Shown: positions 1 through 51,535 of the stretch, in pieces
Position numbering within the stretch: position 1 is the first letter of the stretch
Layout: the number at the start of each line of letters is the position of its first letter
Virus record (IMG/VR): IMGVR_UViG_3300033153_004699
Location: 1-51,972 of that record
Source: a virus
Reading direction: 5' to 3' (one strand)
Length of the DNA: 51,972 nucleotides
Notes under the pieces: model-generated
The model's input: only the letters and a program-made list of their open reading frames with translations
What the model was told of the DNA's origin: nothing
Database searches by the model: none
Translations under genes and position numbers: made by a program

Positions 1-1995
1 GGGGTTGCTAAACCATGGAATCCATTTTTTCAAACGCCAAGTTCAGAATTGGCAGACGCTACATATATGGGTAGTTGGATAATGAATTATTTAAGACCTA
101 ATAATAATCCATATGGTGGAGTATCAAGATCATCTTTAGAACGAACTGTATTTTTTAGTGTAGGACATTTTCAACCTGTTAATAATCCAACATTTGATGC
201 TCAGGGAATGCCAGCAACAGATATATTTAATGGTATAGAAATTTGGGGTGGTGATTGTATATTAGATTATATGGGGTTTGCAAGGTTATATCCAAGAATG
301 AGAGACCCTTTTAATTGGAATAATACACCTTTTGAATATGGTATTGGAGAGCTTTACCCATTAGAAAGTAGAGTACATCATCCATTAAGAAATGCTCCAT
401 CTCAACAAGACCCAATATTTAGTAATGTAGGTTTAAGACCACAAAAAGAATTACAAGTAGGTGGAACAGAATGGCCAGATGGAATTTATTATGCAGCTGA
501 ATCTGAATTAAGAGAAGAGTTTGATATTAATTCAGTATTATTTTATGAAGAAACAGTAATGCTGTATGCACCAAAACCATTAAGATTTAATGCTGTAGAC
601 CATTTTCCTGTAAGATGGAGGTATACACCAAGTAAATTTTATGGAGATGAAATAGATAGTTGGAGAATATTTCAAGTAAATGATTTTGATGATTTAAATG
701 GTGAGTATGGAGAAATAACAAGTAGTATATTTATTTTCAATCAAATATATTCATTTCAAGAAAGTGCATTTGGTAGATTAAGAGCTTCTGACAGAGCTTT
801 AATTGAATCTGCTAATCAAGGCTCACTTACAACTGGAATAGGTGAAAAATTAGATGGTATTGATTATATTAATACTGAATTTGGAAATCAACATCAATGG
901 AGTTTATTTAGTTCTGGAAAAGCTGCATACTGGATTGAGGTAAATCAAAGAAAAATTTGTCGTTTTGCACAAGATGGATATATATCTTTAAGTGATGTTA
1001 GAGGTTTACATCAATGGTCAGAAAATGAATTAAGAAATTTTGAAAATCAAGATACTCCTGTTGATGGTTTTGGAATTAGTGGAGTATTCGATTATCAAAA
1101 TAATGTTGCAATTTGGTCATTTATAAGAGATAAAAAAATAAAAATTAGTGATGTAAATAGTCTTTATGTAGTTTCAACTGAAACAAGAGTTAATAATTAT
1201 GTTTATACTATTATAAATAATTTAGATTTAGTAGAAATTGATCCTTCAAGTGCTGTAGTAGATGTAGTAATTCCAAAAAATACTTCTATTAATGGTAATA
1301 ATTATTTATTTGTTTTTTATATAACTAATATATCTATTGGAAATGTTTTACAAGTTAAACAAATAGATGGAGCTGCTTTTACAGGAATTGTAAATATTAA
1401 TCCAGCTGAAACTTATAAGTTTTATAGAAATGATATAAATGATGATTGGTCAACTGTATTAGTTAATAAAGCAGAAATAACAGAAAAATATTATTCAACA
1501 TTATCATTTAATGAAATATCAAACGCATTTGTTGGGTTTCATTCTTATAGTGCTAATATTTTTATAACAGCTAAGAATTTTACATTAGCATATTCTGAAA
1601 ATCATACTAATGATTTATGGGCTTTAAATATTGGAAGAGTAACAGAATATTACAATGAAAAATATAACTCTATACTTGAACCAATTGTAGCAGACCAAGC
1701 AATGTATGCAAAAGTTTTTGATACGTTTAAAGGAAACGCTAACTTTAACCTTGTAAATACTTTAGAAGAAATACATATGATTTCAGATACAACATATAAT
1801 TTGTTATCATTAACTGCAGATACAAGAAAAGCTTTTAAAGAAAATGTATTAAGATTACCATTAAGAACTACAGATCAATTATATAGAACAAGAGGAAAAC
1901 AATTAACTGAAATATTAATAATTAATAATACAGATTTAAAGTTAACTCAAATATCAAGTATAACTACTGATTATAGAATTTCAAATAGAATATAA
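1..1995 (+). CDS. Large virion (tail-region) protein, 5' end outside the window
   Basis: The reading frame is open from base 1, so the gene starts upstream; 664 residues are visible. A TTG at 49 could be mistaken for the start, but the 16 codons before it are open and look like normal protein (they encode GVAKPWNPFF and onward). The protein is rich in Asn, Tyr and Phe, has no signal peptide or membrane segment, and looks beta-rich, as expected for a large tail-tube, nozzle or muzzle component. It lies directly upstream of cargo-like proteins and a giant virion RNA polymerase, the place where crAss-like phages carry tail hub/muzzle genes. The role is inferred from position only; no diagnostic motif was recognised. 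Confidence 0.7.
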   Translation, partial: GVAKPWNPFFQTPSSELADATYMGSWIMNYLRPNNNPYGGVSRSSLERTVFFSVGHFQPVNNPTFDAQGMPATDIFNGIEIWGGDCILDYMGFARLYPRMRDPFNWNNTPFEYGIGELYPLESRVHHPLRNAPSQQDPIFSNVGLRPQKELQVGGTEWPDGIYYAAESELREEFDINSVLFYEETVMLYAPKPLRFNAVDHFPVRWRYTPSKFYGDEIDSWRIFQVNDFDDLNGEYGEITSSIFIFNQIYSFQESAFGRLRASDRALIESANQGSLTTGIGEKLDGIDYINTEFGNQHQWSLFSSGKAAYWIEVNQRKICRFAQDGYISLSDVRGLHQWSENELRNFENQDTPVDGFGISGVFDYQNNVAIWSFIRDKKIKISDVNSLYVVSTETRVNNYVYTIINNLDLVEIDPSSAVVDVVIPKNTSINGNNYLFVFYITNISIGNVLQVKQIDGAAFTGIVNINPAETYKFYRNDINDDWSTVLVNKAEITEKYYSTLSFNEISNAFVGFHSYSANIFITAKNFTLAYSENHTNDLWALNIGRVTEYYNEKYNSILEPIVADQAMYAKVFDTFKGNANFNLVNTLEEIHMISDTTYNLLSLTADTRKAFKENVLRLPLRTTDQLYRTRGKQLTEILIINNTDLKLTQISSITTDYRISNRI

Positions 1996-14700: not shown

Positions 14701-17700
14701 GATAGAGGACATTTAACATATTTTAAAGTTCCTAAGTATAGTCAAGAACAATTGGTTAACGAATATAAAATAAGAGCAAAATTAGATGAAGCTTTGTTAA
14801 ATAGAAAAATAAGAGATAAAGGTGTTTCGCCAAAATCTTTAGTAAATCAATTTAATAAACTTTCTTTAAATCAAGCTGTTATATCTGATGGTAAAGTTGA
14901 AGTATCTATAGACTTTTCACAACCTCGAGTGCAAAAAAGAGTAGATAATCTATATAAATTATTAGAAACCTCTGGAACATTAGAAGCTCTTGCTCAACAA
15001 AATCCTTCTGTAATAGTTGATGGTAAAATAAATAAGGATAAAGTAAATGAATTAATAACAAATTATATTTACACTGAATCATTAAATAGGTCTTATTTAA
15101 CTGATATTTATGCCGGTCCAGCTATAGATAGAAAATCAGTTGCTGATGTAATGAAGCGTATGGCTGGTTTAAATTCAGGCGGTAAGCTTATTCAAATAGA
15201 TAAACCAGTTCATGTATTTGTTTTAGATACTTCAGGGGCAGATGGAAGAATTATGTCTGATTCTTTTTCATTTAACGGTTCACATTTAGCAAAACATATT
15301 TCAATACAAAGTGGTAGTACTGATGTAGTTGGTGTAAATATGAAAGATATGCTTTATCAAATTAGTAATGATGGTGGTCTTGATTTTTATAAAATGTCAA
15401 CTTTAAATGTTACTGGTGAAATAGATGATAATTCATTAACTCAATTTACTGATTCTAATAATCTAACTGAAGGTTATAATGCAATTGGAAATGCAATTTT
15501 GGAATTAGAAAAAGCTTTAGGTGATAATGCGTATGTTAAAATAATTGACGCAGATGTAGTTAAAGGAGATTTGTCAAAATATGATAAAATTCCAATTAAT
15601 GAATTTCTTGCAGATCCAGCAAAACAAAAAAATAGAAATACTCTCAAAGAATTTAAAAATTACAGAGTAGCATTTAATCTTAACAAAGATTTATCAAAAG
15701 TTCCATTAGCTAAACAAAATGTAATAATGTCTACACAATTAGCTAAAATTTTATTAAATCATGATGTATCAATTAAAGAAATTGAAAATTTTGAAAATGC
15801 ATTAGTATCTGTATTAGATGATTCATTAAAACAAAATCAAACATTTAGTAAGTTAGAAAAAGTTAATAGATTATTAAATGAATTAACTAAAGATTCAGAA
15901 GAAAATACAAAGTCAGAAATTATCGAAATTCTTTCTGAAATGAAACGATTAAATAGTGGAACTTTTGAAACTACTTATAGAATTGGAAATTATAATTATT
16001 CTCAATCTCAAGTAGCTAATTTAGGTTCTATAAATGAATCTGCTAAAAAATATGCTGATAATTTAATAACTAAACAAGAGTGGCAAGATATATTAAATAA
16101 ACATGAAATGTCTGAAGAGATGTTTAATGAAGCCATGACTAATAATGTTATAAATAGATATAAAGGAAAAGATTTAGGCGAATTTGCAACAACAATTAAA
16201 AAAAGTAAAAAAGTTAGTATATTATTAGATTCTTTTGATCATCCAAATTTAAAACCTATGGTTGAGCAATTTATATCAAGTAGGTTAACAAAACAGGGTA
16301 TAAGAACTAATATGTCTGGTATGTATGCACATATGCTTCCAGATTTTACAGATAAACTTAAAGGTTATAAAGAAAATGGTTTAGAGCCAATGGAAATTGG
16401 TGTTCCATGGTCGTTATTTATACAAAAAAGACCAGGGGAATCTGATGAAAGTGCTAAAGGAAGAGCTGAAGAATTATTAAAAGAAAAACCAGAATTATTT
16501 AGAAATGTTGTTGTTCGTGTTCCAGCTTCAGGAGCTGTATCAAGTTTTGCTGGACAAGTTAAGTTTTTTGTTGATGGACATTCAAATACAGCTATTGTTC
16601 CTAAATCATATATGGAAGCAGCAGATGCAGATAATGATGGAGATAAAGTTTTTGTATATAGAGCTGATTTAAATAAAGAAAGTGAACTTTTAGAAAGTAA
16701 TAAAACAAAAGCTTTTAACCAGGTTTATGAAAAAGCAAATTCTAAAGCTCAAAAAGAAGCTGCAGTAAAAGGAGATTTATCTTTAGATAGAATAAAAGAA
16801 CTATTAAAAGAATTTGATTTATACAATGAAGATGTTTTTCAATTAAATAGTAATGAGGATTTTGCTAAGTTAGCAAATAACATGTCTTTTGGAGCAGATG
16901 CTATAGGTATATGGGCTGTAGCTTCTAAAATGTTATCAATGCTTTCACAGTCACAAGAACAATTAAAAAAACCTATTTCTTTTGGTTTTGAAAATGGAAA
17001 TTTAGTTGATATAAAAAGACAAAAATTTACTAACAATGCATTAAGTGATGTAGCAGTATTTTTACAAGCAGCTCTTGATATGGGTAATGATCCAGTTCAC
17101 ATTTCAACAGGAGTTAATGAATATACTATAGGTGTTGCAACAGCATTATCTTTAATGGATGTTTCTTTTGAAGAAATTATTCCTTTTTTAAATTCAAAAC
17201 CTATTGTTGATTTAGTAAATGAAATTGATAATGCTAAAACAAATTATATAGATAAATCTTCTTTTAGTATTAATAAATTCTTAAAAGCAAAATTAAACGA
17301 ATTTGACGCTAAAAAAGGAAGTAAGTCTAAAGCTGAAATAAAAGCAATTATAGAGAACGGTGGTCAAGTAATACAAAAAGATCAAGTTGTTCCTGGTATA
17401 TTTAAAACTGGAGATACATATTATAAAGTAGAAGAAATAGAAGCAAATGTTGCTAAATATTCTTTTGCTACAGAATCTGATTTAGAATCTTCAGATAATT
17501 TAGCAATTATCAAAAAGTTTGCAGAAATTCAAGAATTAGCTTCAGAATTACAAAGACTAATACCAGTATTACAATTAGATAATAAACTACCTAACAATGG
17601 TTTTGATACAAAAAAATCATTAGAAGTAATGGCAGATTTAAGAAGTGATGGTTTTTCTTTTACTACTGATAATTTAGCAAAAAGACCATTGATTAAACAT

Positions 17701-33997: not shown

Positions 33998-34858
33998 TTA
34001 AATTGTTCCGAAGTAACAAAAATTATTTACGTATTCTTTATCGTAATTGTTTAAATTATTTTTATGTACTTCTAATAAATACTCATATTTTTCTCTTCCA
34101 GCTTGTAATGTTTCAGCTGAAACTTCATAAATACCTACAGTGTATGGATATGTTTTTTCTACACATATAAACCAAAATTGGTCTAATCCTAAAATATCAC
34201 AATATAAAGCTGCTTGTCTATCTAAATTGTATTTTTTTAAATTTCTTAGAAAATTATAAGGATTAGGAGTTTCTTTAAACCCTTTTAAATCAACTATATA
34301 ATTTCCAATATTAATTGCGTCAACTTTACATTTACAATTTATACCATTTAGTTTTTTAAAATATGCTTTTTCTTTTTTTGTATTGTGTAATAATTGTTTT
34401 ACTTGAGTAATTGCTTCAAGTTTTTCTTTAATTAATGTTAGATGTAAATATAATTCATAACTAATTTCTTGTTTATTAAGATTTTTGTTTTGAATTTCAA
34501 TTTTCCATTCTTTATATCTTTTAGTAGCTCTTGGTTTTGCTCCACCAATTTCTTCTATAATTTCTGTATCATTAATGTACCAAAATCTATTATCAAATTC
34601 TTCTGGCTCTAAAATAAAACAGTGTAAAGCTCTACCATCTATATATGCTTGTTTTTCTTCTCTCCATGCTGGGTATTTTAAATAAGCATCTAAATGTTCA
34701 GGTGAATTATTTAAATGCTTTAGCATAGAGTTTGTAATATAATCTACATCACTAAAATACTTAGTATCATTCCATTCTAATAATCTTTCTTGATTTGGAT
34801 CATATTTCTTAACTTCATTAATAAAGTCTTTTGCTTGATTACTTGGTATTAATCCCAT
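33998..34858 (-). CDS. RecE/RecB-like PD-(D/E)XK exonuclease (286 aa)
   Basis: The motifs appear in order: GRALHCFILEP (His79), KVDAI with Asp180, VDLKG with Asp190 and Lys192, and QAALYC (Gln215, Tyr219). This is the nuclease core of phage exonucleases of the RecE/ExoVIII and lambda-exo type, which resect duplex ends for recombination. A recombination role fits the nearby RecA-like ATPase, SSB-like and NinB-like genes. The start is ATG at 34858, overlapping the upstream gene by ten bases. Confidence 0.8.
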   Translation of the reverse strand: MGLIPSNQAKDFINEVKKYDPNQERLLEWNDTKYFSDVDYITNSMLKHLNNSPEHLDAYLKYPAWREEKQAYIDGRALHCFILEPEEFDNRFWYINDTEIIEEIGGAKPRATKRYKEWKIEIQNKNLNKQEISYELYLHLTLIKEKLEAITQVKQLLHNTKKEKAYFKKLNGINCKCKVDAINIGNYIVDLKGFKETPNPYNFLRNLKKYNLDRQAALYCDILGLDQFWFICVEKTYPYTVGIYEVSAETLQAGREKYEYLLEVHKNNLNNYDKEYVNNFCYFGTI

Positions 34859-37157: not shown

Positions 37158-37179
37158 AAAGGACACCGAAGTGCCCTTT
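37158..37179 (-). promoter_or_regulatory. Leader hairpin with TTCG tetraloop upstream of the NinB-like gene
   Basis: In - strand sense AAAGGGCAC, loop TTCG, GTGTCCTTT: nine pairs, one of them G-U in - RNA (A-C on the + strand). Followed by an A/T leader and ATG at 37144. Confidence 0.8.
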
Positions 37180-37186
37180 ATTAATC

Positions 37187-37822
37187 TTAAAATGGTAAAT
37201 CATCACCTTTTTCATCACCTAAAGAATCATCAGACATACCCTTATCAACAACTGGCTCTGCCTTGGTGGCAGCCGTTGTTGATTGTTTATGTTCTGATTC
37301 CCATTCTGCTAATCGAAGATTAAACTTCTCCATATCAGAAGGTCTTAAAGGAGTGTGAAAATATGATTGTACACCTTTTATTGTTTCATCTGGCTTAGAA
37401 GAAAAACTATATTCAATTATTTCTTTTATAACAGGTTTGTTAAAATTGTTTTTGTCTTTACCTATATATTCAGATTTTTTGAATAAAGCTTTTATTTTAT
37501 TTCCAATAATAGAATTTAAATACTGATCACCTTTTAATTTATCATCAGCATTAGCATTAGATAAAAACTCTTTAAGTCTTTTTAATTTAAACTCTCTGGC
37601 TTTATCTGATTCTTTTCCTGTTAATAAATAAAAAGTAACATTACTTGTTTTTTGATCTTCAGTTTCTACTGTAAATTCAATATAAGGATTACCCTTATAA
37701 TCTTTTCTACTTTCAGAAAGAAGATATGATTTAATCTTAACTATAAATACTCCAGGCTCATTTATAAATTTGCTTGAATTATCAAAGTCTTTTACGAGTT
37801 CTAACTCTGCGTTTATATCCAT
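37187..37822 (-). CDS. SSB-like protein with acidic tip (211 aa)
   Basis: The N-terminal ~130 residues are beta-rich with GNPYIEFTVETED near residue 43, as in phage DUF669/OB-fold single-strand-binding proteins. The C-terminus is disordered and ends GDEKGDDLPF, the acidic hydrophobic tip (consensus DDIPF) through which SSBs dock to replication enzymes. It overlaps the RecA-like ATPase stop (TAATG). An ssDNA-binding partner of the adjacent ATPase and DnaB helicase is a good fit. Confidence 0.75.
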   Translation of the reverse strand: MDINAELELVKDFDNSSKFINEPGVFIVKIKSYLLSESRKDYKGNPYIEFTVETEDQKTSNVTFYLLTGKESDKAREFKLKRLKEFLSNANADDKLKGDQYLNSIIGNKIKALFKKSEYIGKDKNNFNKPVIKEIIEYSFSSKPDETIKGVQSYFHTPLRPSDMEKFNLRLAEWESEHKQSTTAATKAEPVVDKGMSDDSLGDEKGDDLPF

Positions 37823-38499
37823 TATTTATCGGTTTTTTTGATTTCTGTTTTCTTATCCCATCCATAATATTTATCGACTTCATTTAATATTCCCATAATG
37901 TCATTATCCATAATTGGAGGTAACATTTCCATTGGTGATTTAGCTGATATTCTATTATATCCAGGTTGTTTGTTTGTAATAAATCTATATTCTTGCTTAT
38001 CATTAATTTCTTTAGCTTCAGAATAAACTACAATTACAAATTCTTTTTCTACTTTTTTCTTCCAACTTCCATCTACAGCTATAAATCTTTCTTCGACTCC
38101 AGAATCTCCTTCAACGAATTGATCTATACCTATAAAAATTATGTACTTATCAGTATTCTTAGACATTTCCATAATTTTCTTGATTTCATTCTTATAATAA
38201 TCCCATACATCAAAACCATCGTATAATGATTTTGCTTTCATGTATATAGTTTCTATTAAAGAAGTAAAACTTTCAATTACTATAATATCTACATTAGGAT
38301 TTTCAATTGCTTTAGTTAAAGCAGTTTTAAATAATTGAAGAGAATTAATTGGTACATTAAGTTTAAATTCTACTCCCTTTCTAAAAGGAAGTGCTTTTTG
38401 TTCAGTATTTAGTATTACTGTTCTTTCAGGTGGTAAGTTACGCATTGACGTACTTTTACCTGTCCCTGATGGGCCACATATAAAAATATTCGGTTTCAT
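37822..38499 (-). CDS. RecA-like P-loop ATPase, Sak4/AAA_24-type (225 aa)
   Basis: Walker A GPSGTGKST at residues 9-17 and Walker B DIIVIES at 71-77 define a compact RecA-fold ATPase starting almost at the N-terminus. Length and neighbours (SSB-like, NinB-like, exonuclease) match phage Sak4-type annealing ATPases rather than a helicase. It probably loads on SSB-coated DNA and pairs strands. The subfamily name is inferred from size and context. Confidence 0.7.
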   Translation of the reverse strand: MKPNIFICGPSGTGKSTSMRNLPPERTVILNTEQKALPFRKGVEFKLNVPINSLQLFKTALTKAIENPNVDIIVIESFTSLIETIYMKAKSLYDGFDVWDYYKNEIKKIMEMSKNTDKYIIFIGIDQFVEGDSGVEERFIAVDGSWKKKVEKEFVIVVYSEAKEINDKQEYRFITNKQPGYNRISAKSPMEMLPPIMDNDIMGILNEVDKYYGWDKKTEIKKTDK

Positions 38500-38809: not shown

Positions 38810-39058
38810 TTATTTGTATCTTTTTTGATGTTTTCTTTTTCTTAAATTTATATCATTTCCTTCTTTGAGAATTTTGTTTTTATAGCGTTTAAGCATTTTA
38901 ATTTTGAAATATCCCTTAAGATTAATTTCTTCATTTTTTTGCAAAGCTTGTCTTACGCTATTAAAGAAATGAATAACTACAATATTCACCACAGCACCGT
39001 CAATCCCTAATTTTTTAGAAATCTCGGTTATAATTTTCGAATGCTTGTAATTTTTCAT
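38810..39058 (-). CDS. HU/IHF-like DNA-binding protein (82 aa)
   Basis: EISKKLGIDGAVVNIVVIHFF then VRQALQKNEEINLKGYFKIKM follows the helix-helix-strand pattern of HU (normally 90 residues). A basic C-terminal tail (LRKRKHQKRYK) replaces a full DNA-wrapping arm. It would bend phage DNA at the origin or in packaging; Crassvirales often encode IHF/HU proteins. It overlaps the DnaB 3' end by 44 bases. Confidence 0.7.
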   Translation of the reverse strand: MKNYKHSKIITEISKKLGIDGAVVNIVVIHFFNSVRQALQKNEEINLKGYFKIKMLKRYKNKILKEGNDINLRKRKHQKRYK

Positions 39059-40412
39059 TTTCTAAAAATTCTACTTCAGAAGCAAATTTGGCAAATTTTC
39101 CTATATATTTTAAGTTTTCACTTCCAATACCAGTTGACCTACCTTTTGCTATTATTATTTCTACGTTTTCAATTTCAGGTATTCTTTCTTCAATATCATA
39201 ATAAGCTGGTCTATAAACAAACATAACCATATCTGCATCTTGCTCAATAGCACCTGATTCTCTTAAATCTGATAATATTGGTTTTTTACTTGCTCTCTGC
39301 GATACAGCTCTACTAATTTGAGACAAAGCTATTATAACTAATTTTAGTTCTCTACATAGCTGTTTAAATGCTCTTGATATTTTAGATATTTCTTGTTCTC
39401 TTGTTCCGGATTTACTTTTTAAATTAATAGTTACTAATTGTAAATAATCTACAACAAAAAATTTACAATTATTTTTAATATTTAATTTTCTGATCTTATT
39501 GCATATGTGATTTAAATCGCCAGATTTATCGTCAATAAAATAATTTTCATTTTCAAAATATTTGGCAGAATCATAAAATGCATTCCAATCTGATGAGGTT
39601 AATTGTTTTTTTCTAATCTTTCCTAAATCTATACACCCATGAGATGCAATCATTCTTGTTAACATCTGTTCTTTAGACATTTCTAAAGAAAAAACAGCAA
39701 CAGGTAAGTTTCTGATAATATGATTTTTAACAATTTCTAATACAAATGCTGTTTTACCCATAGAGGCAGCTCCAGCTATTATAATTAAATCTGATAATTC
39801 CCATCCAAATATAAAATTGTCAATTTCTTGAATAAATGTTTTAATATAATTTTTGCCTTCTTTATCTGACATATTATCAATAACTCCTTGTAGAGTTTTG
39901 ATAGGATTATATTCTTCAACATCTGCATATTCTTGTAATTCAACAATTTTATCTGTTATTTTAGCTATTATATCATCTGGACTTACCATATCATTAGAGT
40001 CTTTATTAATCTCATTTGATAGAGTTAATAATTCTCTTCTGGTTGAATAAGCCATTAATAATTTAATATGCTGTTTTATATGAGCATCGGATGAAACTCT
40101 ATCTGCTATATCGTTAATGTAATCTATTAATGTATAACCTGTTTTTTCAATAATTCTTGCATTATAACCTTTTGAAGTTACTTTATCTGTTACAGTTATA
40201 ATATCTATTTTGGAATCTTCTGCACATTCTTTGATTGCTGTAAATACGTATCTTGATGATTCTGTAGAAAAACCTTTAATATTAACCTGGTCTGCAAATT
40301 CATAATATCTGTCAGGATAGTTAATAAAAGTTCCTAATACAACTTCTTCTAAATCGCTATTATTTTGTCCAAAAAATGTACCTTCTTGTAAAAATGTGAG
40401 TTGGTCTGTCAT
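39015..40412 (-). CDS. dnaB: DnaB-type replicative helicase (465 aa)
   Basis: N-terminal helical domain (residues ~1-160) with EEVVLGTFINYPDRYYEFA, as in DnaB; RecA-like domain with Walker A GAASMGKT at 214-221, FSLEMSKEQMLTRMI, FVVDYLQLV (Walker B) and LSQISRAVSQRASKKPILSDLRESGAIEQDADMVMFVYR. Length is normal for DnaB. ATG at 40412 is chosen; a TTG at 40439 lies inside the upstream hairpin. It unwinds the replication fork and probably recruits a phage or host primase, as no primase gene lies in this window. Confidence 0.95.
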   Translation of the reverse strand: MTDQLTFLQEGTFFGQNNSDLEEVVLGTFINYPDRYYEFADQVNIKGFSTESSRYVFTAIKECAEDSKIDIITVTDKVTSKGYNARIIEKTGYTLIDYINDIADRVSSDAHIKQHIKLLMAYSTRRELLTLSNEINKDSNDMVSPDDIIAKITDKIVELQEYADVEEYNPIKTLQGVIDNMSDKEGKNYIKTFIQEIDNFIFGWELSDLIIIAGAASMGKTAFVLEIVKNHIIRNLPVAVFSLEMSKEQMLTRMIASHGCIDLGKIRKKQLTSSDWNAFYDSAKYFENENYFIDDKSGDLNHICNKIRKLNIKNNCKFFVVDYLQLVTINLKSKSGTREQEISKISRAFKQLCRELKLVIIALSQISRAVSQRASKKPILSDLRESGAIEQDADMVMFVYRPAYYDIEERIPEIENVEIIIAKGRSTGIGSENLKYIGKFAKFASEVEFLENEKLQAFENYNRDF

Positions 40413-40425
40413 ATAATTTATAATT

Positions 40426-40455
40426 TCAAGGCACACCAAAGAAGGTGTACCTTGA
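40426..40455 (-). promoter_or_regulatory. Leader hairpin upstream of dnaB
   Basis: A twelve-pair stem (40426-40437 with 40444-40455), loop 40438-40443, with one G-U valid only in - RNA. Between the upstream stop and ATG 40412, followed by an AAATTATAAATT box. Confidence 0.8.
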
Positions 40456-40895: not shown

Positions 40896-41224
40896 TATTT
40901 ATCTTCTTTAAAAAAACTTTCAACTTTAGATAGTAAAGATTTTGCTATTCTTTCTTTACCATTTTGCTCAACTCTATGAGAAATTAGTGCTTTAATGAAA
41001 AAAGTCAAACTAACTGTTTTTAGACTTCCATATTGTTTTTCAGTAGCATATTTTTCAAATATATCAACAACTTCATGTTTACTTAAAGTAATAGGTGAAG
41101 CATCATATCCTTGTAATTTTGTTTTTTTCTTTTCTATTTTCTCATTGATTTCTTTAGAAAGTTCTAAAACTTCTGAATCATAAAGAGCATTTACTTTTTT
41201 TTCTAAAACTTTTTCAATTTTCAT
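40895..41224 (-). CDS. Hypothetical helical protein (109 aa)
   Basis: Lys/Glu-rich and predicted all-helical; no membrane segment. ATGA overlap with DUF932 upstream and TAATG overlap downstream. It may be a partner of DUF932 or part of a replication unit; not recognised. Confidence 0.5.
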   Translation of the reverse strand: MKIEKVLEKKVNALYDSEVLELSKEINEKIEKKKTKLQGYDASPITLSKHEVVDIFEKYATEKQYGSLKTVSLTFFIKALISHRVEQNGKERIAKSLLSKVESFFKEDK

Positions 41225-42327
41225 ATTTTAGTTATTAATTTTCCAGCGATATCTTCTATATCTCTTTTTCTTCGTGTATTTCCAGTTTGTACACCTACTT
41301 GAGTCATTGCTTGAGTAAGTTTCCAAATAGTATTTCTACCTTGTACACCATGTTCTGGGTTATTATCAGATAAGATTTCAGTTAATGATTTAACTTCATC
41401 TTTTCTCATACCTAATTTTGGAAGTAATTTAACTTCGTGATCTAAATTAATTAGCTTAGAACCAGCTCTCTCAATGTTTTGAATTTCATTAAATAAATAA
41501 CTACTATCAAAAGCACTTTTAACAATATCTTTTACTAAAGAAGCTTGAGTTTCTGTATCTAATTTATATGTTTCATTACTTAAAATTAAATTATCTGGTA
41601 ACTTTTTACCTAAATGAACTTGTCTAATTAAATTTTCTCTTGTCATTCCATTTAAACAAACTACTTGCATAGAATATGATTGAACTCTTAATGCTCCATC
41701 TCCATAATCAGAGTTAGAAATTCTAAGTCCAAATACCATATATGTTGTACCATTGTATTGTGTTTGTACAGGTACTACTTGAGGTAATATAAATTCTATA
41801 TAAGTTCTTGTAGGGTCATAACAACAATCTAATAATTTTGCTCCTTGATCTACACAGGCGTTAAAAAATTCAGCATAAATTTCAGCTGTATTTAATCTTC
41901 TATATTTATCAGATAAAACACCTTTAACTTCTCCATTTAGTTCTCTTAAAAGATATCTTTTGCTTTCATTATTAGTTGAGTGTTCATTTAATAATTTACT
42001 TGCTAAATCTCTTTCCCATTGCTCTTTACCAGTAGCTAAATTTTTCAAATAAGTTGTAGGTATTCCAAATTTATCTGCAAATTGTCCAATTGCATGTCTA
42101 TGAATTTTCTTTTCAGCATTTTCAAATTGCATTTTTACTACACCATTTGAATTAAAATTAATTATAGGTGAATCTTTACCAATAGGAACAACATAATCTA
42201 TAATGTTATTACTTTCGTCTTGAATTTGTTGAATAATTGGCATTTTATCAGATGCATTACTCAATTTTCTTGTTATTTTTTCTTGAAGTATAGACTTCTC
42301 TGTTGGGTCAATTGTTTGTATTTCCAT
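41221..42327 (-). CDS. DUF932 protein (368 aa)
   Basis: RYLLRELNGEVKGVLSDKYRRLN, GLRISNSDYGDGALRVQSY and VCLNGMT are the conserved features of DUF932, a family common in phages and plasmids, often alongside PRTRC genes. Here it follows the PRTRC ThiF gene in the same direction, separated by a hairpin. A role in replication or in the conjugation system is possible, but biochemistry is unknown. Confidence 0.8.
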   Translation of the reverse strand: MEIQTIDPTEKSILQEKITRKLSNASDKMPIIQQIQDESNNIIDYVVPIGKDSPIINFNSNGVVKMQFENAEKKIHRHAIGQFADKFGIPTTYLKNLATGKEQWERDLASKLLNEHSTNNESKRYLLRELNGEVKGVLSDKYRRLNTAEIYAEFFNACVDQGAKLLDCCYDPTRTYIEFILPQVVPVQTQYNGTTYMVFGLRISNSDYGDGALRVQSYSMQVVCLNGMTRENLIRQVHLGKKLPDNLILSNETYKLDTETQASLVKDIVKSAFDSSYLFNEIQNIERAGSKLINLDHEVKLLPKLGMRKDEVKSLTEILSDNNPEHGVQGRNTIWKLTQAMTQVGVQTGNTRRKRDIEDIAGKLITKI

Positions 42328-42343
42328 ATATATATTTTAAAAC

Positions 42344-42371
42344 AAAGGACACCAAAGATTTGGTGCCCTTT
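42344..42371 (-). promoter_or_regulatory. Leader hairpin upstream of the DUF932 gene
   Basis: A twelve-pair stem (42344-42355 with 42360-42371) with a single G-U valid only in - RNA and the CTTTGGTGT box. It separates the PRTRC cassette from DUF932. Confidence 0.8.
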
Positions 42372-42374
42372 TAT

Positions 42375-43139
42375 TTATAATTTAATTGGATTTACTATCA
42401 TTTTATCTAAATTCATAAAAATTCCATTTTGTGAAGTTCTATATTGTCTAAATAATTTCCATAGTAAATTCATACCAAATTCTGCTAATGTTGAATTAAC
42501 TAATAAATCTTGTCGATTTAAAGCTTCTAACGTACTACAGCTGGGTGTATCATCATTTTCAATTAATTTCCCTAACTTTTTTTCCATTTCAATAATAGTT
42601 GGCATTGTAATACATTTAGCACCTTCAGGTTGATTAATATGACCCATAGTGCCTAATATTGCTTGACCGTAATTATTTCCATTTCCAAAATCTAACCAAT
42701 AATAACAAGTATTGTATGGTTGTTCTGTTCTTAATTTAGTTTTGACTTTTTGAATGTCTCTTCTAATTTGAACATTATCAACACAAGTAATAATTATATT
42801 ATATTGTATTCGTGGGTTATCAAAATCAATTTCAAACTTTTCTGGAATACTATCCCAATTTGTACTATAGAATCTGTTAATTCTTTCTATTGTTACATCT
42901 GATTTAAACTTTCCTAAATCTGTTTCAGAAAATAATTGTCTACCAACATTTGCTTGTGAAACTTCATCAGGATCATAACATCTAACAAAAAAACCTGGAT
43001 GTCCTAAACCTATTAATCCAGCATTCATTCTTCCTAATATAGCTAAAACTGAACTTCCTGTACCTCCAGCTCCTATTACTGCAATAGTTACTTTATGTAC
43101 TGGTGCTATCAGAGATTGCTCCATATAATGATACTTCAT
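42375..43139 (-). CDS. PRTRC system ThiF-family E1-like adenylyltransferase (254 aa)
   Basis: An E1/ThiF fold: nucleotide-binding GAGGTGS at residues 23-29, acidic Asp56/Asp58 in CYDPDEVSQANVGRQ (Asn64, Arg67), ITCVDN at 118-122, and a candidate catalytic cysteine Cys201 in PSCSTLEALNRQDLLVNSTLA. This enzyme class activates the C-terminal glycine of a ubiquitin-like protein by adenylation. Its partner is the C protein 2.3 kb upstream. The stop of B overlaps its ATG (ATGA), confirming one operon. The PRTRC-ThiF assignment follows sequence and gene order. Confidence 0.9.
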   Translation of the reverse strand: MKYHYMEQSLIAPVHKVTIAVIGAGGTGSSVLAILGRMNAGLIGLGHPGFFVRCYDPDEVSQANVGRQLFSETDLGKFKSDVTIERINRFYSTNWDSIPEKFEIDFDNPRIQYNIIITCVDNVQIRRDIQKVKTKLRTEQPYNTCYYWLDFGNGNNYGQAILGTMGHINQPEGAKCITMPTIIEMEKKLGKLIENDDTPSCSTLEALNRQDLLVNSTLAEFGMNLLWKLFRQYRTSQNGIFMNLDKMIVNPIKL

Positions 43140-43807
43140 ATTAAATCTTTTAAAAATTTATTATAACTTGTAAGATTTGCGTTGTCATTAAAACCATTTC
43201 TATCCCAAATAACATTAATATTGTTTTTAAAATTAGAATGATTTAAATGAGTAAATTTTGAATTAAAAAACATTCTTTCTATATGTATTATTAATTCTTC
43301 TAAATCAGATATATTCCAATTTATTTTAGCATTACCCATACATACCTTACCATCATTATAAATGTTATGAAAAGGAGCATAATAGATTTTAGTTTTTAAC
43401 CCTCTATCTAATTTATATGCATAAACATATAACTCTCCATTTTTAACTTGAAATATTAAATTAGGTATTATTTTACGTTTATCTTTTATTCGATTAGTTT
43501 CGCTAAAAGTTAATTCTCTTACACTTTTCTTAAATAACCACATTAAATTTAAACTTTGATCTTTTAAATTAAAACGTACAACATTAGATGGAATAAAGTT
43601 TTTAAACTCATATTTACTTTTGTCTATACCTTTAATTTCTTCAAGTAATTTACCTAAAAGTTTAATTCTTGCTGGTTTACCAGGTCCAAATGTAAATTTA
43701 TTGTCTTGTAATTCTCTAATTGCATGTTCTTCAACATAAGATGAAGATTCACTATGATATACAATTAAGCTCATTACGGGTTTTAGTGTTTCTGGAACTT
43801 TGTTCAT
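43136..43807 (-). CDS. PRTRC system protein B, E2-like (223 aa)
   Basis: The C-terminal half has YYAPFHNIYNDGKVCMGNAKINW with Cys156, the conserved site of the PRTRC-B/prokaryotic E2-like family (GxVCxG), which would accept the ubiquitin-like protein from the E1-like ThiF. The N-terminal ~120 residues form a family-specific alpha/beta domain. Coupled to ThiF (ATGA) and to a small ORF upstream (ATGA). Family assignment strong; conjugation activity is inferred from E2 homology. Confidence 0.85.
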   Translation of the reverse strand: MNKVPETLKPVMSLIVYHSESSSYVEEHAIRELQDNKFTFGPGKPARIKLLGKLLEEIKGIDKSKYEFKNFIPSNVVRFNLKDQSLNLMWLFKKSVRELTFSETNRIKDKRKIIPNLIFQVKNGELYVYAYKLDRGLKTKIYYAPFHNIYNDGKVCMGNAKINWNISDLEELIIHIERMFFNSKFTHLNHSNFKNNINVIWDRNGFNDNANLTSYNKFLKDLI

Positions 43808-43929
43808 TTTTTAATTTCCTTTAGCTTTCTTTCTGCTAATTCAATTTTCCATTTGCTACTTCCGTTAGTTCGTCTTTTATTGACTTCTTTAGTCCAGTAG
43901 CTTGTCATATATTCTTTAGTAGTTTTCAT
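43804..43929 (-). CDS. Small basic protein inside the PRTRC cassette (41 aa)
   Basis: A 42-codon ORF (MKTTKEYMTSYWTKEVNKRR...) whose ATG overlaps the F-position stop (TAATG) and whose stop overlaps the B start (ATGA). Basic and helical, no membrane segment. The tight coupling suggests it is a real cassette member; function unknown. Confidence 0.55.
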   Translation of the reverse strand: MKTTKEYMTSYWTKEVNKRRTNGSSKWKIELAERKLKEIKK

Positions 43930-44960
43930 TATTCATAAATTAAGTAACTATTTTCTAACCATTTTTTATATTTTTCTGGAAAATCATTATCATAATCTTT
44001 TAAAAAAGGATTATCTTCTGTTAATTGTTGTTCTTGATAAAATGGTAAGATTTCACAGTTATTATAATAATACTGACCTTGTTCTTCATATCGTTGAAAA
44101 ACAAAATCTGTTTCATCAATAGACCATAAAAAATTAGCATAATATTCTGGACCAAATAAATAATCATCAACATCATTATTTTTCATTAGACTTTTAAATG
44201 GAATGAAATCGTTAAAATTAACATTAACAATTTCAAAACCTTCTTCAATCCATGCAACTAACTTTTGATCTTTATAATTATTTACTTTTATTTTACTCAA
44301 TTTATCTTTTAAAGTAAATTCAGTATCTATAGATTTTTCAAAATTAACTTTTTGATATAATGGTATAACTTTATCTTTATACTTTTTTAAAGTTCTTTTC
44401 ATTTCATCCATTTCATCAATATCATCTATATCTTCTAAATTATCAGTAAAATAATCTTCTGAAATGTCTACCATATAATCTATATTATATAAAAATGGTA
44501 TATTAAATTTTTGAACTAAATAAGAAAAATAATCCCACATAAAAGTTTGAAATTCTTTTTTTAAATTAAAAATCCATTCTAATTCAGCACAAAAGCCATT
44601 ATTAAAACCATCTCCTTGTCCAGTCCATAGCTCTAATTCCATTTTATCATTTTGATATATATTCCAATTATTTAAATTTTTAGTTATTTTTTTAATTAAA
44701 TAATTGTTAAACTCATATATATCCATGTTAGGTATATCATCATTTATATAATGTTTTCCAATTGGATATAACAATTTTAATAGCTGTTTAGGATTTTTAT
44801 AAAAAATTAAATCAGATTTAGATTTTAAAATAGGGGTCTTAATAGACAAGAAGGGGTTTTTAACCTTTTTTCTTGTACTACATTTCGCTTGTCTTCGCTT
44901 TCGTGCAATATTATTCTTGCAATCGCCACGTTTGGATTGATATATTTCTTGGGTTTGCAT
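43929..44960 (-). CDS. PRTRC F-position protein (343 aa)
   Basis: An acidic, aromatic-rich protein (many Tyr, Phe, Asp) lying between C and B, where Bacteroidota PRTRC cassettes carry protein F or an equivalent. No enzymatic motif was seen. The N-terminal boundary is uncertain: TTG 45011 is inside a hairpin, ATG 44960 is used here, and the first ~45 residues are Arg/Lys-rich and look unlike the rest, while the overlapping frame (44825-44995) looks more protein-like. A frameshift near 44840 or a later start is possible. PRTRC-F identity is inferred mainly from synteny. Confidence 0.55.
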   Translation of the reverse strand: MQTQEIYQSKRGDCKNNIARKRRQAKCSTRKKVKNPFLSIKTPILKSKSDLIFYKNPKQLLKLLYPIGKHYINDDIPNMDIYEFNNYLIKKITKNLNNWNIYQNDKMELELWTGQGDGFNNGFCAELEWIFNLKKEFQTFMWDYFSYLVQKFNIPFLYNIDYMVDISEDYFTDNLEDIDDIDEMDEMKRTLKKYKDKVIPLYQKVNFEKSIDTEFTLKDKLSKIKVNNYKDQKLVAWIEEGFEIVNVNFNDFIPFKSLMKNNDVDDYLFGPEYYANFLWSIDETDFVFQRYEEQGQYYYNNCEILPFYQEQQLTEDNPFLKDYDNDFPEKYKKWLENSYLIYE

Positions 44961-44995
44961 TCTAATAGTTTTATGTATAAGTTTTCTTTTTTCAT
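44825..44995 (-). CDS. Alternative-frame small ORF overlapping the F-position start (56 aa)
   Basis: ATG at 44995 immediately follows a leader hairpin, as for other genes of this block, and encodes MKKENLYIKLLECKPKKYIN... ending LLRPLF. It overlaps the putative N-terminus of the 343-residue gene in another frame. It may be a separate small gene, or the true N-terminus joined by a -1 shift. Kept as a candidate. Confidence 0.35.
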   Translation of the reverse strand: MKKENLYIKLLECKPKKYINPNVAIARIILHESEDKRNVVQEKRLKTPSCLLRPLF

Positions 44996-45028
44996 AATCA
45001 AGGAACAACAAAGTGTTGCTCCCTGATT
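44996..45028 (-). promoter_or_regulatory. Hairpin within the PRTRC cassette, before the F-position gene
   Basis: A fifteen-pair stem (44996-45010 with 45014-45028, loop of three) with two G-U pairs valid only in - RNA. It ends directly at the ATG at 44995 and overlaps the stop region of the 72-residue gene. Confidence 0.75.
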
Positions 45029-45032
45029 ATTC

Positions 45033-45251
45033 TTATTCATAAAACCATTGCTTTTTAAGCATATTATGGTGCAAATTATTTGCTTTTAATGTTACGTTTT
45101 CACTACACATATAACTTGTGCTACTTCCGTATTTTTCATTTACAAAACTGTCAAAATCAAATCTATTTTTTTGATTTTCAGATTTAAAATTGATAGTTTC
45201 AACTATAACACTTGCTGAACTATATTCAAAAATTATAACATAATAGGTCAC
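45033..45251 (-). CDS. Small protein in PRTRC cassette (72 aa)
   Basis: A GTG start at 45251 overlaps the TGA of the upstream small gene (GTGA). Beta-strand-rich first half (YYVIIFEYSSASVIVETI) and an extended Asn/Lys-rich tail. A small two-strand domain is likely; its function in the cassette is unknown. Confidence 0.5.
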   Translation of the reverse strand: MTYYVIIFEYSSASVIVETINFKSENQKNRFDFDSFVNEKYGSSTSYMCSENVTLKANNLHHNMLKKQWFYE

Positions 45252-45421
45252 TTTTTTTTAGTATTTAAATACTTTAAAAAATATCCTTTATTAAAATTTG
45301 AACAAGTTTTTTCTATGTGTTGAGTTACTGTAAAAGTTATATCATTAAAATCTTGAACAGATGTATGTTTCTTGACCTCTAATAGAGCGTCTGCTACGAT
45401 AATAAAATCTTTTCTTGTCAT
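45248..45421 (-). CDS. Small protein in PRTRC cassette (57 aa)
   Basis: A 58-codon ORF whose ATG is two bases after the stop of protein C. The sequence (MTRKDFIIVADALLEVKKHTS...) suggests a helix-rich small protein, no membrane segment. Coupled to the 72-residue ORF downstream. Not recognised. Confidence 0.55.
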   Translation of the reverse strand: MTRKDFIIVADALLEVKKHTSVQDFNDITFTVTQHIEKTCSNFNKGYFLKYLNTKKK

Positions 45422-45423
45422 AG

Positions 45424-45627
45424 TTATCCTTTAGTTCCAACGTTATTTTGGAATTTATAAACTACTTTGTCATTTTTGATTTCTGGTCCTACTACAGAAG
45501 CTGTAGTTAATTCAGGGTATTGTCCAGAATAAAAATCTAATACATCATTAACAGACATATTGTTAGATGGGTCTGTTAATTCTGTATCTCCATGCATAAA
45601 GATTCTTTCTATTTGTTTTATTTCCAT
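45424..45627 (-). CDS. PRTRC system protein C, ubiquitin-like (67 aa)
   Basis: A 67-residue beta-grasp protein matching PRTRC-C: SVNDVLDFYSGQYPELTTA in the middle and VVYKFQNNVGTKG at the end. The natural C-terminus is a glycine, so it could be activated directly by the E1-like ThiF without protease trimming; no JAB/PRTRC-A peptidase is present in the window. ATG overlaps the E stop (TAATG). Confidence 0.9.
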   Translation of the reverse strand: MEIKQIERIFMHGDTELTDPSNNMSVNDVLDFYSGQYPELTTASVVGPEIKNDKVVYKFQNNVGTKG

Positions 45628-46406
45628 TAGTAATAAGTATAATTAGAAGGGTTATTATTTAGCTTTTCGTTTCTTTGATCAATAATCATTTGAGTTTGCT
45701 CATCAGTTATTGTAGCTCCTAAAGAATTATTTTCTTGTGTAGGTGGAGTTTTATATTCTTCAATATTAGCTTCATCTACTCTTGCTTCAAATTCTTTATT
45801 TTCTTTTTGTTCATTTACAAACTTTGGTGTTCCATCAGGATATGTAGGTTGAGCTGGTTCAGCTTGAACTGGTTCAGCTCTTGGTACATCAGGTAATGGT
45901 TGACTAAACATATCAGGTTGAATGTTTTGCTCATCACATTCTTTAACAAGCTGTGTAGCTTTACTAAACTTAGCATCTTCTTTAAGAATTTGATTGCAAA
46001 TAAATTTACATTTATCATATTCTTTTTCATCAAAATACTTTTGAGCTTTTTCAAGTTGTTTAATTGAGTGTTCTCTAACTTTCTTTTGTTTTTCTTTTTC
46101 TGCTTTAGCAATAGCTGATTCTTCTTTAGCTTTTTCTACTGATAGTTCGTGTTGATGTATATTTCTTAATAACCCACTTGTTTGTTGTAGAGGTTTAGTT
46201 AATAATTGAAAAAATTGAGCATCAAATTCTTCTACAGTTCCAGTAAATAATATTGGTTGTAGTAAATCTTTTGCTTTGTCTTGAACTTTTATTAATGGGT
46301 TTACGCTTACAGTTAATTCATTTTCATTATTCTTTCGAATAGTAATATTAACTGTTTCGCTTATTAATAATAAGCTGTTAATTTGTTGGAAAAATTTATC
46401 ATTCAT
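45627..46406 (-). CDS. PRTRC system protein E (259 aa)
   Basis: Residues ~1-70 match PRTRC-E (LFTGTVEEFDAQFFQLLTKPL), followed by a coiled coil at ~75-150 rich in Lys/Glu and a proline/glutamate-rich disordered C-terminus (PLPDVPRAEPVQAEPAQPT). It is the first gene of the cassette, behind a leader hairpin. Probably a scaffold for the conjugation machinery; biochemical role unknown in the family. Confidence 0.85.
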   Translation of the reverse strand: MNDKFFQQINSLLLISETVNITIRKNNENELTVSVNPLIKVQDKAKDLLQPILFTGTVEEFDAQFFQLLTKPLQQTSGLLRNIHQHELSVEKAKEESAIAKAEKEKQKKVREHSIKQLEKAQKYFDEKEYDKCKFICNQILKEDAKFSKATQLVKECDEQNIQPDMFSQPLPDVPRAEPVQAEPAQPTYPDGTPKFVNEQKENKEFEARVDEANIEEYKTPPTQENNSLGATITDEQTQMIIDQRNEKLNNNPSNYTYY

Positions 46407-46422
46407 ATATATAGTTTTAAAT

Positions 46423-46455
46423 TATCAAGCCACACCAAAGTGATGCGACTTGATA
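46423..46455 (-). promoter_or_regulatory. Leader hairpin upstream of the PRTRC operon
   Basis: A long imperfect stem (46423-46435 with 46442-46455) with one bulge and two G-U pairs valid in - RNA, and a CTTTGGTGT box. It separates the E gene from the winged-helix-like gene upstream. Confidence 0.7.
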
Positions 46456-46462
46456 AAATTTC

Positions 46463-49516: not shown

Positions 49517-50296
49517 CTATGAAAGTAAATGATTTTTCTCGTAAGAGCTAACTTTGGTTACTCCATTTTTAGCTACAAACGTTTTTAGAATTATAAACTT
49601 ATTTAAATGCTCTTGCATTAAACCTACTAAATTATTAGCAAATTGTTGAACTTTAGTTTCATCAATTCTAATAGCAGTATAAGTTCTTTCAATTGCTACA
49701 GTCTTTTTAGTTCCATCTGCTTTTAAAACTTCTTCAGTTTTAGTATATGCAGTAGCTTCTACTAAATCAAATCTTTCATCTCCTAAAGATGCTCTAATTT
49801 CTTTCATTTTTTTAGAAAGTAAATCTTTATATGCATCTCCAACATTTTCTGGATTGATTGCAGTAGCTTGTACCCACATACCTTTTAAATCTATTGTAAA
49901 AGTTTGTATTACATTTTGATGAACTTCTCCTGTAGCTGTATTAGTAAAATCAATTCTTTTTGGAATTGCTAAGTTTGGTAATTTACCATTCTTTTCATTT
50001 TCAATAAGAAATTCTTTACTAACTAAATTTTGAAATAAATATCTCAATTTATTCATTGAACTTTCAAAATTTCCATAACTACTAAATCTTAAATAATCAT
50101 CTACTCCCATTTCGGAGTTAAGATTATTTACTAAATCAAATTTAATTGATGTAGAGTTGGTTTTAGGAGATATATGTACGTTACACGCATTTAATCTATG
50201 CAAACCATCTTTAGTAGTTCTTCTTTCAGTTACACTCTTAGCCGTATGCTCAAGAGTTAAATCATTCAAATACTGTTGTTCATTAATTATAATCAT
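49517..50296 (-). CDS. Hypothetical protein (259 aa)
   Basis: The largest gene in this far-right region: a soluble, alpha/beta protein with no visible catalytic motif. It contains TERRTTKDGLHRLNACNVHIS near residue 23 and TYTAIRIDETKVQQFANNLV near residue 205. Its own hairpin leader and its own terminator make it a separate transcript. Function unknown; possibly a DNA-binding or scaffolding early protein. Confidence 0.6.
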   Translation of the reverse strand: MIIINEQQYLNDLTLEHTAKSVTERRTTKDGLHRLNACNVHISPKTNSTSIKFDLVNNLNSEMGVDDYLRFSSYGNFESSMNKLRYLFQNLVSKEFLIENEKNGKLPNLAIPKRIDFTNTATGEVHQNVIQTFTIDLKGMWVQATAINPENVGDAYKDLLSKKMKEIRASLGDERFDLVEATAYTKTEEVLKADGTKKTVAIERTYTAIRIDETKVQQFANNLVGLMQEHLNKFIILKTFVAKNGVTKVSSYEKNHLLS

Positions 50297-50319
50297 AATT
50301 TTAAGTTTTATTTATTAAA

Positions 50320-50356
50320 CAAAGAACAACAAAGCTTTTGGCTCTGATGTTCTTTG
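50320..50356 (-). promoter_or_regulatory. Leader hairpin upstream of the 259-aa gene
   Basis: CAAAGAACA pairs with TGTTCTTTG with internal AGC/GCT; CTTTGTTGT box on the - strand. Less regular than the others. Confidence 0.6.
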
Positions 50357-50362
50357 TAAAAC

Positions 50363-50732: not shown

Positions 50733-51005
50733 TTATTCGAGAATAAATCTTTGTCTTTTACTAACGCAGTCAAATATGCATAATATCCTCTTGACAACAA
50801 GTTTTGTTAACTCATTATCAGGTTCTAAGATTAGTAGAATACAATCTTCATTATTGCTTTCATCTAAATATTTAATTTTACGTTTCTCTAACATATTTAG
50901 TACAATAAGGTAAACTTCTTCTGCATAATGCATTGCAGTAATTTGGTTTTTATTACCTCTTACCATTAATTTATGTGGGTAAATTTTTAAGTCATATGTT
51001 TGCAT
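50733..51005 (-). CDS. Hypothetical protein (90 aa)
   Basis: A soluble alpha/beta protein with no membrane segment (MQTYDLKIYPHKLMVRGN; VKRILCIFDCVSKRQRF near the end). Single gene between two leader hairpins. Not recognised. Confidence 0.5.
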   Translation of the reverse strand: MQTYDLKIYPHKLMVRGNKNQITAMHYAEEVYLIVLNMLEKRKIKYLDESNNEDCILLILEPDNELTKLVVKRILCIFDCVSKRQRFILE

Positions 51006-51022
51006 AGTTTATAATTTATAAA

Positions 51023-51050
51023 TTCAACAAGCACCTAAGTACTTGTTGAA
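51023..51050 (-). promoter_or_regulatory. Leader hairpin with TTAG loop upstream of the 90-aa gene
   Basis: A twelve-pair stem with loop TTAG (- sense) and one G-U valid only in - RNA. Confidence 0.85.
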
Positions 51051-51070
51051 ATGTAGAGAAGTTATTCGTT

Positions 51071-51140
51071 TTAATGTTAAGTGTTCGGCGATCAGCCGAC
51101 AAGCGTAGCTTGAACGCCAGAGCTTGCTCTGTAACATTAA
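51071..51140. other. 70-base fully paired multi-branch element
   Basis: TTAATGTTA (51071-51079) pairs with TAACATTAA (51132-51140). Inside, GTGT (51081-51084) pairs with ACGC (51114-51117) around two hairpins (51085-51099, 51100-51112), followed by a third hairpin (51118-51131). Almost every base is paired, in a G+C-richer island. The T82-G116 pair is valid in + sense RNA. It may be a small RNA, a recombination site or an origin-type cruciform; undecided. Confidence 0.55.
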
Positions 51141-51160
51141 ATAAGAATTACTGAACGGAA

Positions 51161-51484
51161 TTAAACACCATTTTCAATAATGTATTCTTCATTGCAAGAT
51201 GAACATTTTAATTTCTCAAGAAATAATGCTCCGTCCATAGTTCCACATTCTGATGCTGACACTAATTCTGTAGCACAAATATGTTCATCTCTTTGATATT
51301 GAGTATGAACACCGCAATCAGGACAAGAGTATGATGTTGAAATTTTAGTATCTCCATTCATTTTTAACCATCTTTTACTATCTTCAAAAGATAAATGATT
51401 ATTAAGAAATAAATAATCTTTAATTTTCTCTTTATCTTTTGAATTATTATCGTTTACGATATTTTTGAAAGTTTTGTAGTTCAT
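51161..51484 (-). CDS. Zinc-ribbon-like hypothetical protein (107 aa)
   Basis: Two CxxC pairs (Cys54/Cys57 in SCPDCGVH and Cys94/Cys97 in CSSCNEEY) around a Cys-containing middle form a probable zinc ribbon. The N-terminal half is charged and helical. Could bind nucleic acid or host RNA polymerase, which is common among early phage proteins, but this is speculation. Start ATG 51484 behind a leader hairpin. Confidence 0.55.
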   Translation of the reverse strand: MNYKTFKNIVNDNNSKDKEKIKDYLFLNNHLSFEDSKRWLKMNGDTKISTSYSCPDCGVHTQYQRDEHICATELVSASECGTMDGALFLEKLKCSSCNEEYIIENGV

Positions 51485-51503
51485 AATATATAATTTTAAA
51501 ATT

Positions 51504-51527
51504 CGAGTAACACCTAAGTGTTACCCG
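51504..51527 (-). promoter_or_regulatory. Leader hairpin with TTAG loop upstream of the zinc-ribbon gene
   Basis: A ten-pair stem, loop TTAG in - sense, one G-U valid only in - RNA. Confidence 0.85.
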
Positions 51528-51535
51528 ATTTACAA

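Follow-up and report, generated by a model that had tools for sequence, protein, structure and literature searches.

Operons of the PRTRC type (ParB-related, ThiF-related cassette) have been recognized since 2006, on plasmids as well as at other loci in bacteria. In the classification of Iyer et al. 2006 (PMC1779556), the form carried by plasmids and integrative elements is operon type 6d, and it is represented by the NCBIfam families TIGR03736-TIGR03741. Our literature search found no function for PRTRC-type operons. Here we describe a locus of this type at positions 42375-46406 (- strand) of the IMG/VR virus record IMGVR_UViG_3300033153_004699, whose 51,972 bases, the whole stretch of DNA that was analysed, are called the window below. 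Like the plasmid PRTRC loci, the phage locus has the C, ThiF and E families, a B protein of E2 family D and the order E-C-F-B-ThiF. From the sequence it seems probable that this operon is, as the full best explanation, a working E1-E2 ubiquitin-like conjugation system, and conjugation as such may be held with still better confidence. If conjugation takes place during infection, this would constitute the first phage-encoded ubiquitin-like tagging system, as far as our literature search shows. The five genes of the core are:

45627..46406, - strand: PRTRC-E, 259 residues, with an N-terminal PRTRC_E domain followed by a coiled/TPR-like tail (PF19556 2.1e-30; TIGR03741)
45424..45627, - strand: PRTRC-C, ubiquitin-like, 67 residues, ending exactly at GTKG (PF14454 (Prok_Ub) 9.4e-28; TIGR03738)
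43929..44960, - strand: F-position protein, 343 residues (ATG at 44960; the frame opens at TTG 45011)
43136..43807, - strand: PRTRC-B, E2-like (family D), 223 residues, with Cys156 and Asn148 (PF14460 (Prok-E2_D) 6.1e-22)
42375..43139, - strand: PRTRC ThiF, E1-like, 254 residues, with Cys201 (TIGR03736; Pfam ThiF 1.4e-14)

The original prediction, made from the letters alone, had named four of these open reading frames (ORFs), E, C, B and ThiF; it made no mention of the F-position protein, of two small ORFs, of the missing JAB protein A and ParB or of which phage this is. All four were recovered at their places on the - strand, with GAGGTGS and Cys201 (in PSCS) in ThiF, GKVCMG with Cys156 in B and the GTKG end of C as it had described; the gene order also agrees, E-C-F-B-ThiF being seen in plasmid PRTRC loci too. 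It had called the locus a PRTRC cassette and proposed a profile search with C, B and ThiF. In this search ThiF (238 bits against PRTRC_ThiF, TIGR03736, cut-off 145) and C (73.9 bits against PRTRC_C, TIGR03738, cut-off 46) passed the NCBIfam cut-offs, but B scored 95 bits against PRTRC_B (TIGR03737), under the cut-off of 131, while passing the wider PF14460. E is over both of its cut-offs (57 bits against TIGR03741, cut-off 38; 106 bits against PF19556). Unlike a full PRTRC cassette, the window gave no ParB with a profile from four PRTRC ParBs and no match to the profile of the JAB protein A, the sole loose match to the metal-binding motif falling in an unrelated ORF; moreover, C ends at its glycine. 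The assignment to PRTRC therefore stands for C, ThiF, E and, at the level of E2 family D, for B, but since ParB and A are missing and B stays under its cut-off, the locus is better described as an E-C-F-B-ThiF conjugation core than as a full cassette. Plasmid loci annotated as PRTRC can also lack ParB and A (L009, L014, L015), and in this sense the phage locus is a PRTRC variant. The Tunicatimonas plasmid among them (L014) also has, at 15059-17112 and apart from the PRTRC locus, genes for a multiubiquitin protein and for a separate ThiF enzyme that goes with it.

The residues expected of an E1 and an E2 are kept in these proteins. In ThiF the E1-type nucleotide-binding motif, the Arg and Asp residues and the catalytic Cys are all present, and C201, D56, N64, R67, K79, N88, D121, R126, D150, G152, N153 and Q210 never vary among 171 near-full-length proteins (171/171). 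The ThiF profile reached E1s in the PDB at 1e-9, its relatives there being UBA6, UBA1, NEDD8-E1 and Cap2. As for B, N148, C156 and G158 are invariant (163/163 proteins), and Asn148 precedes Cys156 by eight residues, the spacing of the catalytic Asn of the HPN motif in eukaryotic E2s, where this Asn is required for attack by lysine. Compared with four human E2 sequences, the B profile gave a match of 60% probability, aligned only over the active-site motif T-K-I-Y...N-I-x-x-x-G-x-V-C, and the controls, a reversed profile and the unrelated ThiF, gave 0.2% each. Iyer et al. described the Cys plus a downstream His in B-type proteins (PMC1779556), and we found this His in 146 of the 163. The ratio of nonsynonymous to synonymous substitution (dN/dS), taken between the window and its relatives L002 or L004, was 0.16-0.22 for ThiF, 0.08-0.21 for C and 0.25-0.33 for B, and higher for E and F (0.36-0.40). 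Judged by their codons, ThiF, B and C are under purifying selection, and the faster change of E and F would be expected for parts that touch targets. ThiF-type enzymes and small beta-grasp proteins also act, as textbooks describe for thiamine and molybdopterin synthesis, as sulfur carriers, and C and ThiF might in the same way form a thiocarboxylate for some modification with no protein tagging. We hold this to be very unlikely, given that an E2-like B with an invariant Cys and Asn nearly always adjoins ThiF and that no sulfurtransferase or desulfurase was seen adjoining the cassette.

The end of C follows the presence of JAB protein A. Where A is present, 43 distinct C proteins continue past GTKG with a long tail (25), a short one (9) or none (9), L036 (long) and L067 (short) being classed by eye; where A is missing, none of the 96 distinct C proteins extends beyond the motif. 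Of the 103 loci without A, 102 have Gly as the final residue, Pelobacter with GTKA being the exception. The two catalytic Cys and this Gly, whose loss in related phages the original prediction had named as evidence against it, are not lost. The association of tail and A is strong (Fisher 2e-23, for the rows that the script could place and with no correction for kinship), and A changes 4 to 6 times on the tree. Four seeming exceptions proved to be artefacts of a text pattern, all four proteins ending at KG. An extended C is always accompanied by JAB A, which is a new correlation. The simplest reading would be that JAB A frees the terminal Gly of C, a kind of processing for which Iyer et al. had made a general prediction (PMC1779556); a joint occurrence of tail and A would be expected if A cleaved C at this Gly and a free Gly were the essential feature. 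This rule points to the active-end residue of the tag and to the protein that matures it. As the C of the window lacks a tail, and a JAB gene turned up neither beside it nor elsewhere in the window, processing would not be needed, and a phage enzyme to undo the tag is not evident in the window, which covers part of the phage genome.

According to the conjugation scheme, C would be translated already mature, with Gly67 free; ThiF would adenylate Gly67 and load C onto Cys201; C would be handed to Cys156 of B; and B, with Asn148 in the place of the HPN Asn, would attach it to target lysines. Only the first step can be read from the sequence, and invariant residues together with homology point to the following ones. 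The phage itself probably does not strip the tags, no JAB protease having been found in the window. E and F would probably select or scaffold the targets. No Pfam or NCBIfam family matched F, although its iterated profiles reached the F of many Bacteroidota-type loci and then L014 and L023-L025; its structure model is confident and mostly helical, and gave no significant fold match in the PDB. Some results weigh against the operon being such a system. The AlphaFold model of B, although confident (pLDDT 90.8), had no Foldseek match in the PDB, which may speak against a standard E2 fold or may merely reflect far divergence, and a search of PDB sequences with the B profile returned nothing. The same search with the C profile was also negative, and a link between C and ubiquitin by sequence profile was not obtained. 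In addition, the relatives L191 and L218-L225 have the same replication genes with no cassette alongside, so that phages of this type can do without it.

That the cassette is carried by a phage, as originally proposed, is confirmed by the crAss muzzle protein encoded in the same record. Its gene is cut by the left end of the window; the intact one in the record of L004 encodes 1467 residues and is 82% identical to the window over the shared part. Compared with GenBank, the whole L004 muzzle protein resembles those of crAss, Flavobacterium and Cellulophaga phages with 22-27% identity among the matches listed. With this match and these relatives, the sequence indicates that the record is that of a deeply diverged crass-like phage. 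Terminase (PF03237) and capsid (PF05065) profiles had no match in the window, which starts inside the muzzle gene. The replication module, with DnaB, Sak4, single-strand DNA-binding protein (SSB) and exonuclease VIII, occupies the - strand half, and unlike in plasmid PRTRC loci, the phage core sits beside phage replication genes:

49..1995, + strand: crAss muzzle protein, C-terminal part, cut by the contig end (PF25731 1.1e-44; phrog_28748)
33998..34858, - strand: exonuclease VIII-like protein (phrog_412 2.7e-43)
37187..37822, - strand: single-strand DNA-binding protein (phrog_743 5.4e-6)
37822..38499, - strand: Sak4-like single-stranded DNA annealing protein (phrog_2872 5.6e-27)
39015..40439, - strand: replicative DnaB helicase, syntenic neighbour (PF03796 5.4e-82)
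41221..42327, - strand: DUF932-like gene, the next transcription unit (phrog_1362 5.2e-56)

Elsewhere in the window, a 3370-residue ORF at 8767-18879 without a Pfam match adjoins a 1158-residue ORF with a match to phrog_28077; judging by its size and position, it may correspond to the region of crass-like phages that holds the giant virion RNA polymerase.

This setting is not particular to one record. By ThiF alignment we found the cassette at no fewer than 135 places in IMG/VR, of which 80 were kept. Among the longer records (49 analysed for terminase and capsid, 48 for muzzle), 20 have at least one phage marker: terminase in 12 (9 over the curated cut-off), HK97 capsid in 4 and muzzle in 5. 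The records without a marker may be fragments, may have markers missed by the three profiles or may be plasmid-like. The block E-C-F-B-ThiF, with DnaB, an 82-residue HU-like protein, Sak4, SSB and exonuclease after it, recurs in about 19 contigs, some of them truncated, which come from different samples and form two well-supported ThiF clades with replication proteins 36-58% identical between them. When Sak4 was the only query, 18 contigs had it at 51% identity or more together with at least 6.2 kb upstream, and the cassette is present in 16 of these, a share that is biased upwards as the query was built from carriers; the two without it are L191 (Sak4 57%) and L225 (51%), and five others at 50% are also without. 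The long-kept synteny together with the absence in some relatives describes a stable but dispensable cassette. It is found widely among viral contigs, has been stably kept in two crass-like clades, and is not rare cargo. The original prediction had considered such a cassette unusual among lytic-phage replication genes, which holds for GenBank phages, where there is one complete case, but not for IMG/VR. Neutral cargo from a conjugative element, or a misassembled contig, might still be suspected, the core being common on plasmids and the IMG/VR contigs L130 and L142 grouping next to plasmid sequences in the tree; but with synteny across different samples and two diverged clades, purifying selection and invariant active sites, such a passenger is highly improbable. 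At 1490-2809 of L191, near the cassette's place and upstream of DnaB, lies a gene for a 440-residue protein whose start, by eye, looks like a GHKL-type ATPase.

Given the fixed place beside DnaB, Sak4, SSB and exonuclease, the most likely targets of the proposed conjugation would be members of the replication-recombination complex of the phage, or proteins of the host that come into contact with this complex, although a replication target is a tentative suggestion, with the balance somewhat against it. Alternatively, tagging may disable a host defence protein or host factor during infection. The cassette is phage-borne, lies in the early region, is accessory in that some relatives are without it, and occurs in Bacteroidota phages with differing genomes; in L002 it also contains Mom, a likely counter-defence gene for DNA modification. 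Nevertheless, plasmids and contigs from bacteria carry the same core, in many cases together with ParB, and have no like need to disarm a host, and its long-kept replication setting is unlike the fast-changing islands of counter-defence genes. We regard this alternative as rather unlikely.

Other features of the locus concern its organization:

46422..46456, - strand: hairpin in the leader of E (in L004 the stem sequence is changed and the structure kept)
45248..45421, - strand: 57-residue ORF, kept in close relatives only
45033..45251, - strand: 72-residue ORF, kept in close relatives only
43804..43929, - strand: 41-residue ORF, seen in the sequence, that fills the gap between F and B
42345..42371, - strand: terminator-like hairpin between ThiF and the DUF932-like gene

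The locus had been described as one coupled operon. In support of coupling, the start of C overlaps the stop of E as TAATG, and F, the 41-residue ORF, B and ThiF follow one another with overlaps of 1-4 bases; but a strong hairpin within 44960-45032 divides the first half of the operon from F, so a single transcript across the whole is not shown. In L002, a 96% relative, a Mom DNA-modification gene (8710-9336; PF25680, 4.6e-28) lies between F and B, where the window has the 41-residue ORF. Strong hairpins precede most transcription-unit starts of the early half and are followed by an AT-rich stretch and ATG (46422-46456, 42345-42371, 37160-37186, 44960-45032, 50296-50362, 51005-51160 and 51484-51535), the centre often being CACTT(T/A/C)GGTG. 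They may act as terminators or, like those of phage N4, as hairpin promoters for a virion RNA polymerase. A promoter scan was uninformative (45 found against 45.7 expected).

Among known defence systems, type II CBASS, through Cap2, and Bil have a related E1 nucleotide-binding domain. The core might be directed against co-infecting phages or plasmids by tagging their proteins, phages being what Bil and type II CBASS also act against: within the defence library its E1 comes closest to E1-E2 defence proteins, and the core is found on plasmids and phages alike. However, the defence-library matches span the nucleotide-binding part only, no PADLOC family covers C, B, E or F, and the operon contains no nuclease, nucleotide cyclase or other effector, for which reasons we think competition between elements distinctly unlikely. 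In the PADLOC and PDB matches to CBASS and Bil the E1 part lies within longer proteins, giving partial E1 matches and no whole-protein match to a defence family, whereas the phage E1 and E2 are separate and have no defence effector.

The only complete cassette among GenBank phages is that of Burkholderia phage BgVeeders33 (OK665841), with the order E-C-F-B-A-ThiF. It is phage-borne like that of the window, but JAB A is present, C has a 62-residue tail and the sequences fall on a separate branch of the tree; the phage itself, with an integrase-like ORF (L010, 22016-23185) and Mu-like tail genes, is not crass-like. Another GenBank entry, MT839883 ('Bacteriophage sp.', 6.6 kb), was rejected as a phage example, having transposase-like and sensor-kinase-like ORFs by eye. 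Phages, whose genomes are small and whose expression is timed, offer a tractable setting for PRTRC, BgVeeders33 being an example already isolated.

A further comparison is found within the crass-like phages. In crAss001 (L177, 18271-20669), gp76 and gp77 are adjacent, between primase and uracil-DNA glycosylase and downstream of DnaB and Sak4, an arrangement common to six Steigviridae genera (L177, L178-L182) in which they are annotated as thiamine biosynthesis and metalloprotease, respectively. Profile comparison relates gp76 to PRTRC ThiF as an E1 (98.8% probability) and gp77 to PRTRC A as a JAB protein (86%); gp76 has an invariant C, in CSYKQT, and gp77 keeps HSH..FFSGTD. Despite suggestive motifs, we do not claim gp78, which has an invariant Cys, as an E2 or gp79 as ubiquitin-like, profile comparison having given 0.1-0.8%. 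Our literature search found no paper linking crAss phages with ThiF, JAB or ubiquitin. The Steigviridae pair, unlike the window core, falls outside the PRTRC families, and like it places an E1-like enzyme within the replication module. It is conceivable, though we put it forward as a doubtful proposal, that at least two crass-like lineages independently built ubiquitin-like conjugation into DNA replication, one with the JAB-less PRTRC core, with a ready-made tag and no removal by the phage, and the other with the Steigviridae E1 and JAB pair, the tag marking the replication complex.

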